This document shows, in pieces, positions 13,270 through 19,883 of a stretch of 64,000 nucleotides of DNA. How positions within the stretch are numbered: position 1 is the first letter of the stretch; the number at the start of each line of letters is the position of its first letter. The stretch is from assembly GCA_029547025.1 (NCBI GenBank), contig JAKPQA010000022.1, forward strand, positions 1 to 64,000, written 5' to 3'. This stretch comes from Armatimonadota bacterium (GTDB lineage: Bacteria; Armatimonadota; Zipacnadia; UBA1398; JAKPQA01). A program made the position numbers and the translations under genes. The notes under the pieces were generated by a model. That model did not search any database, was not told the origin of the DNA, and saw nothing but the letters and a program-made list of their open reading frames with translations.

Positions 13270-13485
13270 GCGTGGGCACTGGGACCAACTCCTGGGCCGT
13301 ACTACACGGGGAACCATGCCGCGCCGGGCCGTCCATGTGGGTCTGCCCGAGTCTGACGGAAGGCCCGAGACGGGCGACCACGGGCGTGCCGGAGACTCGG
13401 GTACGCTGAGGCCCGCGCAGGTCGGCTTCGTGGCGCGCCCGAACACGCCTGCCGTCCATCCAAAGAGCCCCGAGGAGTGTCGCCC

Positions 13486-16251
13486 ATGCTCCTGAGCGTT
13501 TTGTCGCTCTGCGCCGGCCTCGGCGCAGCGCCGGCCGACATCGTGCTCGAGAACCCCCATGTTCGGATCGCGATTGCGCCCGATGGCGGCTGCGCGCGGT
13601 TCGAGGACCGGAGGACCGGTCGCAACCATCTGGCGGACGGGCCGCCTGCCCCCTTGGCGCGCCTGAAGGTGGCTGGCGCTGACAGGGTCTGTGATCGTGC
13701 CTCCCACGCGGCGGGGAGGCTCACGCTAGGCTTCGGGGAAGACGGTCCGACCGTGGTCCTCCGCGTTCGCCCCGAGGCGCGCTATCTGAGGTTCGAGGTC
13801 GTCTCGGTCTCGGACCCCGACGTGGACGAGCTGGCATTCCTCGACATCCGGCTGGCCGACGACGGGTCGGCGGATGGCTTCCAGGCCTGCGTCCTGGCGC
13901 TCAACCTCCAGACTGATGTCCCCCAGCTTCCCGAGCCCAGCGCGGTGCTTCAGGCGCGGTGTGTGCGACGCTTCGGGCTGGTCGGGGCTCGAGCCGCCCT
14001 CATCGCCACGCCGGAGGCCGAGCTTCGCCAGGCCATGAAAGATGCCGTGCTGGGCTCCAGGGATCTGCCGCACTCGCCCTTGGGCGGGCCGTGGGCGCTC
14101 GAAGGCCCGCTCAACCGCAGCTCGTACCTGTTCAACTTCGGCGGCCTCTCGGAGCAGACGGTAGACGAGTGGATTGCCCGGGCGAATGCACTCGGGTTCA
14201 ACCAGATCCAGTTCCACGGCGGCAGCTCGTTCCGATTCGGTGACTGCGCGCTCGACCCGGCCACCTATCCCGATGGACTGGCCAGCATGCGGCGGGTGAC
14301 CGACCGCCTCCATGCTGCCGGGCTCTGCGCCGGGATGCAGCCTTATGCGTTCTTCATCGACAAGCGCTCTTCGTGGGTCACCCCAAAGCCCGACCCGAGG
14401 CTGGCCAAGAGCGAGACCTACACGCTGGCCGAGGACCTCACGGCCGACGCCGTGACCGTGCCGGTCCTCGAGACCACCGCTTCGGTGTCGACCGTCACCG
14501 GCTTCTTCGTGCACAACAGCGTCATCGTGCAGATCGATGATGAGCTGATCATCTACACGGGTGCCACGAAGCAGGCGCCCTATGCCTTCACCGGCTGCCA
14601 GCGGGGCGCGCTAGGTACGACGGCCGCACCACACCGGCGCGGCGCCACGGTTGGCCACCTCAAGGAGTGCTTCGGCTTGCTCGTGCCGGATCCCGAGACC
14701 ACGCTGTTCGAAGAGGTGGCCGCCAAGACCGCAGAGCTGTTCAACGAGGGCGGCTTTGACTGCATCTACCTCGATGCACTCGACGGCGAAGGCATCCTCG
14801 GGGGCAACGACAACGCGTGGCACTACGGGTCCAAGTATGTGTTCGAGATCTGGAAGCGGCTCAAGCGCCCGGCGGTCATGGAGATGAGCACCTTCCACCA
14901 TCACTTGTGGTTCGTGCGGTCGCGCATGGGCGCCTGGGATCACCCGACGCGCTCCCACAAGCGCTTCATCGACATGCACGTCGAGGGAAACCGGACCAAC
15001 CAGCGCATGTTTCTCCCCAGCAACCTGGGTTGGTGGGCCTTCATGGCGTGGCAAGGCTCACAGACCGAGCCGACCTACTCCGACGACATCGAGTACCTCT
15101 GCTGCAAAGCCCTCGGTACCGATAGCGGACTCTCGATGACCACCTTCGACCCCGCCCAGCCGGCCCAGGCACGTCTCGCTGCGATCGTCCGGCGCTATGA
15201 GACGCTGCGGCATGCTGGAACGGTTCCCGAGGCCATCCGGGCCCGACTCCGGCAGCCGGGGCAGGACTACAGCCTGGTGGACGGACCCGGCGGCGCCCCG
15301 GCTTTCGTCCCCATGCGCTACGCCAGGCACCGTGTACTCGGAGACGAGGTCTGGGCCACGCAGTGGACGGTCCGGAACGAGTTCGCCGAACAGCCCGCCG
15401 GTCTGCGGATCGAGGCGCTGTCGGGCGCTGCACCCTACGAGGAGCCGGATGCCGTGGCACTGGCGGGTTTCGACGTGCCCGACGAGTTCCCGGAACGGGC
15501 GGCCGCAGCTGGGGTCAGCCTCGACCTATTGGCGACCCGGGGCCCCAACGGTGAGGCTGCGGGCCTGATCCACGCCAGCAGCTCGCTCGGTGATCCGCGC
15601 GGGTCGTGGGCCAGGCTTGGGAAGCGCTTCGACCCCCCGCTGAAGCTCGGCGACCGGCAAGCGCTCGGTGTCTGGGTGCGCGGCGACGGCAAGGGTGAGG
15701 TGCTCAACTTCCAGCTCATGAGCCCAGAGCACCTGACCAGCGGCATCGGCGAGCACTACGTGATCGTGGACTTCGAGGGCTGGCGGTACTTCGAGCTCAT
15801 CGAGCCGGACTCCGACCTCTATGCCGATCTCGCTTGGCCCTATGGCGGGTCCTACTCCGTCTACCGCGAGTCGGTGACCTTCGACGCCATCGACCGGTTC
15901 AGCCTGTGGATCAACCACCTGCCCCCAGGAGAGCCGGTCGAGTGTGCCGTCGCCCCCGTTCGGGCACTGCCGCTGCGGACGGTGAGCCTGCAGAGCCCTG
16001 CCGTCACCATCGGCGGCCATACCATCGGGTTCCCGGTGACGATAGAGACGGGCTCCTATCTCGAGTCTCTGCCCGGTGGTCCGGCCCGGGTGTACGACCC
16101 GCAGGGCAGGCTCGTCGCCGAGGTGGCTCCCGAGGGTGCACTGCCTGCGCTCGGCGCCGGGGATAATGCTGTGGGCTTCTCCTGCGGACGAGGCAAGGTC
16201 GCGCCGCGGGCGAGGGTGACCGTCATCAGCCGCGGGGAGCCGCTACGTTAG
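13486..16251 (+). CDS. Secreted TIM-barrel glycosidase-like protein with inserted beta module
   Basis: Protein of 921 aa with a signal peptide (MLLSVLSLCAGLGAAPA). Residues about 20-190 form a beta-sandwich. The segment FNFGGLSEQTVDEWIARANALGFNQIQFHGG starts a barrel-like domain reminiscent of alpha-galactosidase-type hydrolases, which resumes after an insertion (GGFDCIYLDALDG, possible catalytic Asp). The insertion at about residues 311-392 (14416-14661) is a beta-rich module with FTGCQRGALGTTAAPHRRGA, a pattern I associate with phage tail and baseplate proteins. C-terminal beta-sandwich domains follow. ATG 13486 is 9 nt after GAGGAG; a GTG at 13477 abuts that site. It is followed 27 bp later by the WbsX-like gene. 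Substrate unknown. Confidence 0.65.
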   Translation: MLLSVLSLCAGLGAAPADIVLENPHVRIAIAPDGGCARFEDRRTGRNHLADGPPAPLARLKVAGADRVCDRASHAAGRLTLGFGEDGPTVVLRVRPEARYLRFEVVSVSDPDVDELAFLDIRLADDGSADGFQACVLALNLQTDVPQLPEPSAVLQARCVRRFGLVGARAALIATPEAELRQAMKDAVLGSRDLPHSPLGGPWALEGPLNRSSYLFNFGGLSEQTVDEWIARANALGFNQIQFHGGSSFRFGDCALDPATYPDGLASMRRVTDRLHAAGLCAGMQPYAFFIDKRSSWVTPKPDPRLAKSETYTLAEDLTADAVTVPVLETTASVSTVTGFFVHNSVIVQIDDELIIYTGATKQAPYAFTGCQRGALGTTAAPHRRGATVGHLKECFGLLVPDPETTLFEEVAAKTAELFNEGGFDCIYLDALDGEGILGGNDNAWHYGSKYVFEIWKRLKRPAVMEMSTFHHHLWFVRSRMGAWDHPTRSHKRFIDMHVEGNRTNQRMFLPSNLGWWAFMAWQGSQTEPTYSDDIEYLCCKALGTDSGLSMTTFDPAQPAQARLAAIVRRYETLRHAGTVPEAIRARLRQPGQDYSLVDGPGGAPAFVPMRYARHRVLGDEVWATQWTVRNEFAEQPAGLRIEALSGAAPYEEPDAVALAGFDVPDEFPERAAAAGVSLDLLATRGPNGEAAGLIHASSSLGDPRGSWARLGKRFDPPLKLGDRQALGVWVRGDGKGEVLNFQLMSPEHLTSGIGEHYVIVDFEGWRYFELIEPDSDLYADLAWPYGGSYSVYRESVTFDAIDRFSLWINHLPPGEPVECAVAPVRALPLRTVSLQSPAVTIGGHTIGFPVTIETGSYLESLPGGPARVYDPQGRLVAEVAPEGALPALGAGDNAVGFSCGRGKVAPRARVTVISRGEPLR

Positions 16252-16278: not shown

Positions 16279-17406
16279 ATGCCAGGGCCATACCAAGTCG
16301 GTGCCTACTACTTCCCCAACTATCATGTCGATCCGCGCAATGAGGCCGTTCACGGGCCCGGATGGACCGAGTGGGAGTTGGTGCGGCACGCCACCGCTCG
16401 CTTCCCTGGCCACCGCCAGCCGCGCGTACCCTCCTGGGGCTACGTGGACGAGGCCGACCCGAAGGTCATGGAGGCAAAGATCGACGTCGCCGCCGACCAC
16501 GGGATCGACTACTGGATCTTCGACTGGTACTGGTACGACGACGGACCGTACCTGAGCCGTTGTCTCGAGGAGGGCTATCTCCGCGCGAGCAACAGCCAGC
16601 GGGTGCGCTTCTGCTGCATGTGGGCCAACCACGACTGGATCGACATCCACCCGGCCAAGTACGTCGACCCGCGGCGCCTGCTCTACCCGGGCCGAGTGAC
16701 GCCACAGACATTCGGCACCATGGTTGAGCACATCCTGAACACCTACTTCGCGCACCCGGCCTATTTCACGGTCGAGGGACGCCCCTACTTCTCGATCTAT
16801 GAACTCGAGAAGCTCGTCGAGAGCTTCGGAGGTGTCGCCCAGACGCGCGAGGCACTCGATCACTTCCGGGCGCGCACTCGCGCAGTGGGCTTCCCGGACC
16901 TTCACCTGAACGCCGTCGTTTGGGGGCAGCCGGTGCTGCCTGGTGAGAAGACGCCTGCCGATCCCAGGCGGCTGCTGGCCGACCTGGGCTTTGACAGCTT
17001 CACGTCGTATGTCTGGGTGCACCACGTCCCGCTGCACGAGTTCCCCGAGACCGACTACAACCACGTGCGAGACTGCTACTTCGAGTACTGGGATCGGGCC
17101 GTTGGCGAGATCCCCCTGCCCTATTTCCCGAATGCAACCATGGGCTGGGACTCGAGCCCGCGGACGGTGCAGTCCGAGGTCTTCCGGCCGGTGGGCTATC
17201 CTTTCACGCCACTCATCGGTGGGAACACGCCCGAGCGCTTCCGAGAGGCGCTGCGCATGGTGCGCGATCGGCTCGATGCGCGTCCAGCCCCACGGGTCCT
17301 GAACATCAACGCATGGAACGAGTGGACCGAGGGAAGCTACCTGGAGCCCGACACGATCACGGGCCTCGCCTACCTGCGGGCGGTCCGGGACGTGTTCGCG
17401 GGCTGA
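16279..17406 (+). CDS. WbsX/GH99-like protein
   Basis: Protein of 375 aa. It starts with VGAYYFPNYHVDP, then GPGWTEWELV and a stretch rich in aromatic residues (DYWIFDWYWYDDG). It ends with NAWNEWTEGSYLEPD. These are the conserved blocks of the WbsX family (often annotated as glycosyltransferase) that shares the GH99 fold. No signal peptide is evident, so a cytoplasmic location is likely unless exported otherwise. It sits 27 bp downstream of the secreted glycosidase-like gene and is probably co-transcribed. The family includes both polysaccharide-synthesis and degradation-cluster members, so the direction of the reaction is unknown. Confidence 0.75.
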   Translation: MPGPYQVGAYYFPNYHVDPRNEAVHGPGWTEWELVRHATARFPGHRQPRVPSWGYVDEADPKVMEAKIDVAADHGIDYWIFDWYWYDDGPYLSRCLEEGYLRASNSQRVRFCCMWANHDWIDIHPAKYVDPRRLLYPGRVTPQTFGTMVEHILNTYFAHPAYFTVEGRPYFSIYELEKLVESFGGVAQTREALDHFRARTRAVGFPDLHLNAVVWGQPVLPGEKTPADPRRLLADLGFDSFTSYVWVHHVPLHEFPETDYNHVRDCYFEYWDRAVGEIPLPYFPNATMGWDSSPRTVQSEVFRPVGYPFTPLIGGNTPERFREALRMVRDRLDARPAPRVLNINAWNEWTEGSYLEPDTITGLAYLRAVRDVFAG

Positions 17407-17448: not shown

Positions 17449-19686
17449 TCACTCCAGGACCTCCACCCGCCAGCCGAGAGCATCGGTCCACATGGAGGAG
17501 CCGGTGACCGCGCCCTGCCAGTCGGGGTACTGCGACGCGAACATGCTCATGACCTCTTCGCATGGCGCCGGGTGCGAATAGCCCACCTGAAGGACGCTCC
17601 GCAGCAGGATGGCCACCTCCTCGTCCTTCAGGTCCCAGATGTTCGCGTGACGGTACTGGCCCAGAAGGTCGCTCTTCGTCACCAGGTCGTTCGGGCCCAG
17701 CTCGACCTCTTTGCCGTCATCGGGCTCCCCCGACTTGTGGTAGATGACCTTGGTCCAGCGGTCGTACCCCTTCCAGACCGCGATGACGTGCCCGCCGGCT
17801 TCGACGCTGTTGTTGGGGTAATCCGAGAAGCAGACGGGCCCCCACAGCACGCCCCGGGTGTCCGCGAGGAACGAGTCCCGCTCCTTCACCTCGACGACCG
17901 CGCTGGCCGTCCCCACTTCTTCCCGCTCGCTCTGAGACGGTCCCGCCAGCGCGTACACCGTCACCGTGATCGTGTCCTTGCCCTCACCCTCGTCCGCGGC
18001 CATGTACATGACCGAGTGCCTTGAGCTGTCGAAGTCGTTCTGGTGCCCCTCGATCCCGTCCCACACCTGCCCCCACTTGGCCGTGCAGTTCCAGTGGTAG
18101 ACCAGGTTCACCCCCGAGCCACTCAGCTCCGGCACGGTGACCGTGAACGAGGCCGTCGCTCCGTTCGTCAGCGTGGTCTCCGCCGGAGTCAGCACCGCCT
18201 TGGGTTCCGTCACATCCACGGTCCACACATCCGCCATACTCGAGTGCGCGATGGCATAGCCGATGCCGCCGACGTCGAACACCGTCAGCAGCGCGTCGAC
18301 ATACTTGAGCGCGTTGAGGATTGTCGTCGTCGCGCTCAGCGCCTTGTCGGCGGCCTCAAGGCCCAGGTGGTCCTGGATCAGGTCCAGAAGCTTCTGCAGC
18401 ACCACGTCACGGAACGTGCCCGAGCTCGCGAATGCATGGTACGCGTCGGCCCACGCGCCCTTCACGTCCCCGGCATAGGCCTTCTCCCAAACGCCTGGGA
18501 CGTTCGACGAGAGAATCGTGATGAAGCTGCCGACAGCGTCCGCGCCGCCGATGTGCATCATCATGTCGTCGAGCGAGCTGTTGGGGATCAGGAGGTTCAG
18601 CACCATGGGCACGAACAGCTCTTTGACGACGAATACCTGGGTGGCGTACTGCTGGGCATCGCGTTCGGTGGCGCTGCACTCGGACAGATCGCCCGCCTGG
18701 CCGCCGGGTCCGACGGCCAGCACCCGGTAGCGCGTCTTCACCGTGCCCTCGACCAACGGCAGCTCGACGGCCCCGGTCGTCACCGGCGCGTAGGCTGTCC
18801 TGCCCCAGATGATGTCCACGAAGGTGTTGACCGTGGTGCTCAGCCCGGTCACCGAAGGCACGTCGAACTCGGTCAGCTCGGCCGGCGAGTTGGTCTCGGC
18901 TCCGCCCGAGCCGAAAGTCGACACGCGGTCCACGAAGCAGCGGCTGGTTCGCCGGTAGGTGTTGGCCACGCGGATCGAGTTGAGACCGGCGGTGGTGTCG
19001 AGAGCCAACCCGCTGCGGCTCTCGGCCGGGTTCACCAGCACGCCACGGCTGAACAGGCCGTCCCGCCCAGACCGTGCAGCGGCCTCGGCGTCGTTGGCGA
19101 GCTGCTGGACCAGCGCGCTGACCTCGCTCGCGACCGGGCTCGCACCGGCGAACGCATCCAGGTCGGCGGCCAGTGCGGCAGTGATGCTCGTCGCCAGCGC
19201 ATCGAGATCAGCGAGCCCGCGCAGAGCCTCGATGGCCTCCGCCTGCGCCGCAACCGGGAGCGCGAATGCGCCGGATGCGAAGTAGACCAGTACCTCGGCC
19301 GTGGTGCGAGGGCTCAGAGCCGTGTGTTCGGCATCGAGCCACCCCAGCAGCATGGGGTTTCCCGCGGGGCTGAGGGCGACGGCAAGTTGGCCCTCACCGC
19401 CGTAGCAGGTCAGTGAGAAGGCGCCGTCGGTGCCGAGCGGCGCCTCGCCCGCACTGCTACGGACCGTTGCTTTGGTCGTGCCGGTGAGCCCGATGGCGGC
19501 CAGATCAGCTTGGCCGGCGACGGTCTGCCGCCCGAGCTGGACGACGCCCTGCCCGCCGTCTCCGCCGTCCCCTGCCGGCGGAGTGCCCCCGCAGCGCGTC
19601 CAGAGGGGGAGCAGGGCGAGCACGAGCGCGAGGAGCAGTTGGGAGAGCGCGGAGAGCCTTCGAACACGAGCTGTAGCGCGGCACAT
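17449..19686 (-). CDS. Large secreted protein of unknown function, possibly a lipoprotein
   Basis: Protein of 745 aa. N-terminus has basic residues, then a hydrophobic stretch LLLALVLALLPLW followed by TRC and a Gly-rich linker (GDGGDGGQG), which suggests a signal peptide and perhaps lipidation at that Cys although the lipobox is atypical. Residues about 60-110 look like a beta-domain, about 130-200 are Ala-rich helical, and about 470-600 resemble an Ig/PKD-like beta module (TPAETTLTNGATASFTVTV). The remainder is unassigned. ATG 19686 is preceded by an excellent GGGGAGGAA at 6-nt spacing. It is convergent with the WbsX-like gene and divergent from secG. No family was recognised. Confidence 0.7.
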   Translation of the reverse strand: MCRATARVRRLSALSQLLLALVLALLPLWTRCGGTPPAGDGGDGGQGVVQLGRQTVAGQADLAAIGLTGTTKATVRSSAGEAPLGTDGAFSLTCYGGEGQLAVALSPAGNPMLLGWLDAEHTALSPRTTAEVLVYFASGAFALPVAAQAEAIEALRGLADLDALATSITAALAADLDAFAGASPVASEVSALVQQLANDAEAAARSGRDGLFSRGVLVNPAESRSGLALDTTAGLNSIRVANTYRRTSRCFVDRVSTFGSGGAETNSPAELTEFDVPSVTGLSTTVNTFVDIIWGRTAYAPVTTGAVELPLVEGTVKTRYRVLAVGPGGQAGDLSECSATERDAQQYATQVFVVKELFVPMVLNLLIPNSSLDDMMMHIGGADAVGSFITILSSNVPGVWEKAYAGDVKGAWADAYHAFASSGTFRDVVLQKLLDLIQDHLGLEAADKALSATTTILNALKYVDALLTVFDVGGIGYAIAHSSMADVWTVDVTEPKAVLTPAETTLTNGATASFTVTVPELSGSGVNLVYHWNCTAKWGQVWDGIEGHQNDFDSSRHSVMYMAADEGEGKDTITVTVYALAGPSQSEREEVGTASAVVEVKERDSFLADTRGVLWGPVCFSDYPNNSVEAGGHVIAVWKGYDRWTKVIYHKSGEPDDGKEVELGPNDLVTKSDLLGQYRHANIWDLKDEEVAILLRSVLQVGYSHPAPCEEVMSMFASQYPDWQGAVTGSSMWTDALGWRVEVLE

Positions 19687-19883
19687 CGTGCATTCCTCCC
19701 CGAACCAGACGACGAGGAACCCAGCACGGACCTCACGCGCGTTCTGTTCACTCCATAGAAACGGCGGTGCCAGGAGTCTGTGATGGTAGTTTCCCACCCC
19801 GTACGGTCTTGTCCTCCGAGCTCACGAGTCTGGGCAGGCACCTTGCTGCGGCAGGAGCCCGCCGCTAGGGGCGCGAGTGTCGG

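Follow-up and report, generated by a model that had tools for sequence, protein, structure and literature searches.

Organization of the locus

The window analysed here is a 64,000-nucleotide stretch of contig JAKPQA010000022.1 of an Armatimonadota bacterium. A single uninterrupted open reading frame (ORF) of 924 amino acids at 13477-16251 on the forward strand encodes an uncharacterised enzyme that resembles glycoside hydrolase (GH) families 36 and 31, and its barrel contains a small beta domain related to domains of tailed-phage virion proteins, called here the module. The module had been noticed at 14416-14661, in the initial annotation, as some 82 residues interrupting the barrel. These positions lie within the ORF and encode 82 residues (314-395) starting TYTLAEDLTADAVTVPV.

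The structure of residues 20-660 was predicted from a 35-row alignment, with a mean predicted local distance difference test (pLDDT) of 91.3 and a predicted template modelling score (pTM) of 0.90; model residue numbers plus 19 give protein residue numbers. Barrel strands 1, 2 and 3 of the model are formed by residues 217-220, 243-247 and 284-288. Strand 3 is followed by a conserved linker and an all-beta block (311-395), after which helix 3 (409-425) leads into strand 4 (429-433). The insert is real, and sits in the beta3-alpha3 connection of the predicted barrel. Modelled alone, residues 312-397 adopt an independent fold (pLDDT 93.2, pTM 0.82), in favour of the initial annotation, and the best solved neighbours of this fold are phage virion proteins. 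The boundaries given earlier hold in part. The end string and the coordinates disagree by five residues, in that HRRGA closes at residue 390 (77 residues from TYTL) and the coordinates run on to GHL. Nor does the insert directly adjoin QPYAFFIDK and CFGLLVPDPE, because 17 residues (RSSWVTPKPDPRLAKSE) follow the former and KE stands between GHL and the latter. The features of the gene are collected in Table 1.

Table 1. Features of the enzyme gene and its product
Feature	Position in window	Strand	Basis
Uncharacterised GH36/GH31-like enzyme with module (924 amino acids)	13477..16251	+	ORF and barrel fold; no Pfam model above cut-off
Likely signal peptide, residues 1-19	13477..13533	+	Suggested by the sequence: hydrophobic run, then AAPA
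N-terminal beta-rich domain, residues 22-179	13540..14013	+	Secondary structure of predicted model
Barrel strands 1 to 3, residues 217-288	14125..14340	+	Predicted model
Linker PYAFFIDKRSSWVTPKPDPRLA, residues 289-310, from strand 3 to module; conserved in family	14341..14406	+	Alignment
Phage-type six-stranded beta-barrel module, residues 311-395, between beta3 and alpha3	14407..14661	+	Profiles, model, structure comparison
Module loop 1, residues 333-349, TTASVSTVTGFFVHNSV	14473..14523	+	Aligned enzyme modules
Module loop 2, residues 364-370, TKQAPYA	14566..14586	+	Aligned enzyme modules
Core-motif stretch of module: E356, R376, G377, T381, H386	14542..14634	+	Alignment of 37 enzyme modules
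D433, candidate nucleophile, end of barrel strand 4	14773..14775	+	Model and alignment; putative role by analogy with GH36/GH31
D488, candidate acid/base, just after barrel strand 6	14938..14940	+	Model and alignment; putative role

Relationship of the module to phage virion proteins

When the whole 924-residue protein was scanned against PHROGs at E <= 1, all three matches fell inside residues 313-392 and none elsewhere. A 97-residue cut-out containing the insert matched the tail protein family phrog_1101 at 4.2e-7, followed by phrog_7578 (unknown function, 1.9e-5), phrog_2885 (baseplate wedge, 1.3e-4) and phrog_11439 (tail fibre, 3.2e-4). The confinement of the matches to the insert, together with the value of 4.2e-7, indicates a signal that is more than chance, and the phage tail and baseplate families that had been expected for the insert were reached by a profile search with the insert alone. 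All 37 aligned enzyme modules match phrog_1101 (E <= 0.01, best 1.7e-9), and 18 of them match the Pfam family Rcc01698_C (PF23666; E <= 0.1, best 1.1e-5). The window insert scores 15.3-15.6 bits against Rcc01698_C, under the cut-off of 27 bits, and is therefore called a relative and not a member of that family; a search of the window's own genome with PF23666 gave no match over the cut-off. Residues L317, E356, R376, G377, T381 and H386 are invariant in the 37 enzyme modules.

A tblastn search with the insert found 33 records at E <= 1 among 50,697 phage records. Of these, 27 are annotated at the matched position as tail tube, baseplate wedge, tail fibre or virion structural protein; the remaining six comprise one 'constituent protein', two 'hypothetical protein', two matches without a feature and one unannotated record. 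These single-sequence matches are weak (best 1e-3, many above 0.05), and the case rests on the profiles. A low-scoring NCBIfam match of the insert to glutamate racemase (0.034, far under the cut-off) was taken as chance.

Comparison of the insert with solved structures placed four phage virion chains at the top. The best is JBD30 baseplate chain 8rk3_b, residues 479-558 (Z 10.7, 76 residues, 24% identity), and next come the VP1 capsid chain 9in6_M (Z 10.3), the Chi tail tip chain 8vjh_A (9.7) and the GP4 portal-tail chain 8jov_1 (9.6). Five more phage rows, namely R4C baseplate, Mystique tail tube, Klebsiella K1 capsule lyase (two entries, presumably of phage origin and counted so) and Phi92 tailspike, have Z of 7.5-6.1, in the range below 8 where the tool warns of possibly just a common arrangement. 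The product of JBD30 gp53 has 735 amino acids by its gene and chain b of 8rk3 has 727 residues; the chain is presumably gp53, and residues 479-558 probably correspond to its domain VI. This segment was reached through structure and not sequence, and contains the E / RG / T / H / G motif. A fold search of the insert against a library of viral proteins gave 43 matches at E <= 0.001, and the fold is thus present in viral proteins; the library holds only viral proteins, many of them unnamed, with one match from a eukaryote virus, and cannot weigh phage against other origins.

Fold and motif are therefore common to the module and the phage virion domains, and the insert is homologous to a six-stranded beta-barrel add-on module of tailed-phage virion proteins, as established by sequence profiles and structure comparison. 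That a common small beta-barrel merely carries a chance motif is very improbable. Small barrels do recur, and the N-terminal barrels of F1-ATPase are the first rows outside phages, at Z 5.6-6.0. Foldseek against PDB gave nothing at E <= 0.001 (best 8.7e-3, itself a phage capsid chain), the module profile found a single match among PDB sequences (E 2.5, taken as chance), and the score of the window insert against Rcc01698_C, as said, is below cut-off. Against these points, sequence and structure agree, every one of the 37 modules matches the tail-protein profile, and the four virion chains exceed the first F1-ATPase barrel by 3.6-4.7 Z units, at 15-24% identity over 74-78 residues.

Prevalence of the module in the enzyme family

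Matches to the barrel profile are found in 35 of 61 genomes, one of which is the window's own; the whole protein matches in 36, among which one (G034) matches in the module region only. Loci with the enzyme are found in metagenome-assembled genomes (MAGs) assigned to Lentisphaerae, Hydrogenedentes, Armatimonadia/Armatimonadetes, Zipacnadia and Bacteroidetes/Cytophagaceae/Sphingobacteriales. When the barrel profile was used by itself, the module was found directly upstream in 97 of 106 barrel matches in the 61 genomes, and none of the nine exceptions is an intact gene without module. Five of them touch a contig end or come within a few bases of it (G042:C1021, G046:C337, G020:C590, G022:C640 and G019:C171), and two are second gene pieces whose first piece has the module (G014:C11 and G041:C704). 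The last two are pieces of one broken enzyme gene (L128, G055:C5), in which the front half of the barrel is gone together with the module and which for this reason offers no example of an empty site. Conversely, 97 of the 102 module matches in these genomes pair with the enzyme; of the five unpaired, two belong to enzyme genes at the start of a contig (G023:C44 and G046:C269, which the whole protein matches too) and three are in other proteins.

The module is carried by all 38 rows of the first alignment, from which the copies L001 and L013 (both the window gene itself), L017, L024 and L026 and the second, shorter ORF of L039 had been dropped beforehand; L021, a near copy, was dropped from alignment A1, and L021, L025 (partial) and L042 from alignment A2. 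It is present also in 12 of 12 further matches, most of them divergent, in 11 regions of Lentisphaerae, Hydrogenedentes and Bacteroidetes genomes (module E <= 3.7e-9). These 12 were taken from 28 matches, of which six more were already in the alignments and the remaining 10 were left out. One Sphingobacteriales MAG (G105, contig 7, L120) has two enzyme-family genes within 7.5 kb, both with the module.

Being nearly universal and found also in divergent members from other phyla, the module is taken as a defining part of the enzyme family, of which it is an old and regular component. A recent or gene-specific insertion is ruled out by the 38 rows, the 97 barrel matches and the 12 further matches. 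The placement inside a glycosidase-like barrel, as first reported, thus stands, and the module is no oddity of this gene.

The barrel and its affinity to glycosidases

Comparison of the model with solved structures showed that its barrel is matched by GH36 and GH31 enzymes. The Flavonifractor galactosaminidase 9ayu aligns over 452 residues (Z 22.5, root mean square deviation 5.5, 11% identity), and Foldseek of the model reached 8x1b at 2.6e-15 with a modest template modelling (TM) score of 0.40. When PDB sequences were searched with the family profile, alpha-galactosidase and galactosaminidase chains were found at about 2e-5 (2.3e-5) over 50 residues. No glycosidase model was matched in Pfam and NCBIfam scans of the window protein (P0001), for which no Pfam model exceeded its cut-off, or in a Pfam scan (E <= 0.1) of the 35 members of alignment A2. 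AP_endonuc_2, another Pfam model of a triosephosphate isomerase (TIM) barrel, matches seven of these 35 (best 0.0011).

In the model, D433 closes strand 4 and D488 follows strand 6; the former is invariant in the 38 rows of alignment A3 and the latter is D in at least 90% of them. Their positions presumably fit the nucleophile and the acid/base of clan GH-D, and by this analogy D433 is a candidate nucleophile and D488 a candidate acid/base. The predicted structure points to a clan-GH-D-like (beta/alpha)8 barrel of GH36/GH31 type with an N-terminal beta domain, at about 10% identity and a Foldseek TM-score of about 0.4.

The protein is likely secreted, judging from its signal-like start. A WbsX-family gene at 16279-17406 on the same strand (Pfam PF14307, 4.5e-51; weak GH99 match at 5.6e-5, under the cut-off) begins 28 bases past the enzyme stop, and the enzyme may therefore be part of a carbohydrate operon. 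Beside these two genes, on the opposite strand, an ORF of 782 amino acids at 17449-19797 has no Pfam match at E <= 0.001.

Occurrence of the module in other proteins

Nine regions with odd module matches, among 101 genomes, were inspected. The module is inserted in three major capsid proteins of SU10 type (Pfam 1.6e-53 to 4.5e-77) and in one Phage_capsid protein (5.9e-7). The loci of these four proteins are in genomes of the window's phylum: L084 (3-932, reverse strand), L085 (3114-4211, forward), L086 (2222-3325, reverse) and L082 (1989-3263, forward). The term phage-tail-like, used for the module in the initial annotation, is accordingly right as to the phage relation and too narrow as to the tail.

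Three proteins without Pfam match but with an HExxHxxxxxH motif also carry the module: L078 (729-2501, reverse), L080 (2016-2927, reverse) and L081 (1492-3537, forward). In the last two the module shortly precedes the motif. A second TIM-barrel-like family with module, likewise with no Pfam match, is represented by L079 (3336-5282, forward) and L083 (3093-5246, forward), and in it the module apparently also follows strand 3, although the alignment is poor there. L105, a relative of L079 found in a different genome, aligns to the part just downstream of the module (31% over 178 positions) and gave no module match.

Phylogeny of the module and direction of transfer

Phylogenetic analysis was performed on 64 module rows. 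All 49 enzyme modules fall on one side of a branch with support 95/98, recovered in 96% of 200 bootstrap trees, while the phage modules need three changes on this tree, and the HExxH modules group with the module of a Pelagibacter phage (98/84). Among the non-enzyme rows, similarity guided the choice of five phage proteins and structure that of JBD30, and the capsid, HExxH and second-family proteins were picked with profiles, so that phages are unevenly sampled. The tree fits a single capture of the module by the ancestor of the enzyme family, and the direction of transfer was probably from phage to bacterium. It must be held against this history that the tree is unrooted, is built on 86 columns, has long branches and bootstrap values that had not settled.

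A reversed or indeterminate direction, in which an old cellular module was acquired by phages as a virion decoration, appears unlikely. An unrooted tree leaves room for it, and the module is carried by the cellular HExxH proteins, with their grouping beside a phage module, and by the second TIM family. On the other hand, the module matches in the 61 genomes pair almost exclusively with one enzyme, whereas the phage modules are spread over capsid, wedge, tube and fibre proteins, and in the tree, uneven as its sample is, the enzyme modules are one group among several phage lineages.

Two other possibilities were considered and rejected. A phage origin of the whole enzyme is not borne out, as none of the 50,697 phage records matches the entire protein at E <= 1e-3; a scan of viral contigs, able to reach only close relatives, gave no match to the enzyme either. 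As to carriage of the module by plasmids, 72,556 plasmid records gave no match at E <= 1.

Capture from phage to bacterium being the preferred course, a broader version of it may be put forward only tentatively: a virion-assembly barrel of tailed phages would have been co-opted as a general active-site domain, becoming the 'domain B' of a glycosidase family in at least four phyla and, separately, entering the second TIM-barrel family and the HExxH proteins.

Possible role of the module in the enzyme

The catalytic face of a (beta/alpha)8 barrel is where its beta-alpha connections are found. Placed in the beta3-alpha3 connection of a clan-GH-D-like barrel, probably since an ancestor of the family, the module would for that reason be expected over or beside the pocket with D433 and D488. 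There it would form one wall of the substrate cleft and set specificity through its two loops, in the manner of domain B of alpha-amylases. In GH13 enzymes, according to the accessible text of PMC10480278, domain B is placed between the third strand and the third helix, clamps the carbohydrate chain, and has loops that affect reaction specificity. In the predicted model, too, a domain of its own stands between the barrel's strand 3 and its helix 3.

The two loops of the enzyme modules differ in length from those of most sampled phage modules. Loop 1 is 16-17 residues long in 33 of the 37 aligned enzyme modules and 9-10 in the other four. The spacing from E to R, which spans loop 2, is 20 in 34 of them and 17 in the other three; it is also 17 in Skadi-4, CRP-901, Sf-CH8, L082 and the three SU10 proteins, and 18 in JBD30 (counted by eye). 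Model confidence over loop 1, in two blocks of ten residues, is 96 and 91 in the whole-protein model versus 87 and 83 in the lone module (nearly the same residues), a gain that is weakly compatible with contact between loop and barrel. On account of the position of GH13 domain B, these length differences and the confidence of loop 1, a cleft-forming role of the domain B kind is somewhat favoured over pure docking.

Three points speak against this role. The invariant E, R, G, T and H are also conserved in phages, and look structural rather than substrate-binding. The JBD30 domain VI, which is of this kind, is described as architectural in the accessible part of its report, and this supports docking no less than substrate binding. 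Finally, the spacing from E to R is 21 in the phage modules P12026 and GJ44, and a longer spacing is thus not unique to enzymes.

In the docking alternative, the module would act as it does in phages, joining the enzyme's own domains, forming an oligomer or attaching the enzyme to a partner or the cell surface, and would make no contact with substrate. It is consistent with the invariant residues being the core held in common with phages. The R4C baseplate match (chain M, residues 1194-1296, Z 7.5, within the warned range) adds to this, for the available text of PMC10276861 places the fibre-binding domain of the R4C megatron at 1131-1447, and the match would fall inside it if chain M is the megatron. 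A fibre-binding domain is similarly given for RcGTA at 985-1304 in the part of PMC7296036 that is accessible, and as far as these two texts go both roles are architectural. Yet docking does not call for such a domain at beta3-alpha3 on the catalytic face, the second TIM-barrel-like family has the module apparently after strand 3 as well, and the module loops are conserved within enzyme subfamilies. Docking is therefore considered less probable than participation in the cleft. That the module was co-opted, and serves in binding or positioning, as the initial annotation put it, is something that we too infer.

If the cleft-forming role and the phage origin are true, the catalytic barrel of a secreted family of bacterial enzymes, one that no Pfam glycosidase model recognised in the present scans, incorporates an architectural barrel of phage virions, and virion modules can stay fixed in bacterial enzymes over long evolutionary times. 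The family would then be a test case for an add-on domain at beta3-alpha3 creating a new enzyme specificity, and the module a marker for finding this unclassified family.

Comparison with known systems

In the accessible parts of the open-licence literature, no report was found of a glycosidase barrel with a phage virion module in it, nor of such a module in the GH36 alpha-galactosidases or the Flavonifractor galactosaminidase. Its nearest relatives by sequence, the families Rcc01698_C and PHROG 1101, 2885 and 11439, align over the insert and have the E ... RG ... T ... H ... G motif in common with it, but they are virion proteins whereas the window protein is a secreted enzyme. The JBD30 gp53 domain, the best structural match, has the motif and is likewise a domain projecting from another domain; as far as its description is accessible, it projects from a fibronectin-like domain and stabilises the baseplate, unlike the module of the enzyme.

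On the enzyme side, the GH36 alpha-galactosidases and the Flavonifractor galactosaminidase, which we take to belong to clan GH-D, have a barrel and an N-terminal beta domain in common with the window enzyme, and differ from it in that neither the window protein nor any of the 35 aligned members is reached by a glycosidase Pfam model. For the module itself the closest parallel is domain B of the GH13 alpha-amylases, a non-catalytic domain which, in the available text of PMC10480278, occupies the same place in a (beta/alpha)8 barrel, after the third strand and ahead of the third helix. This topological place is, as far as compared, all that the two have in common, and the barrel of the window enzyme is nearer to those of GH36 and GH31.

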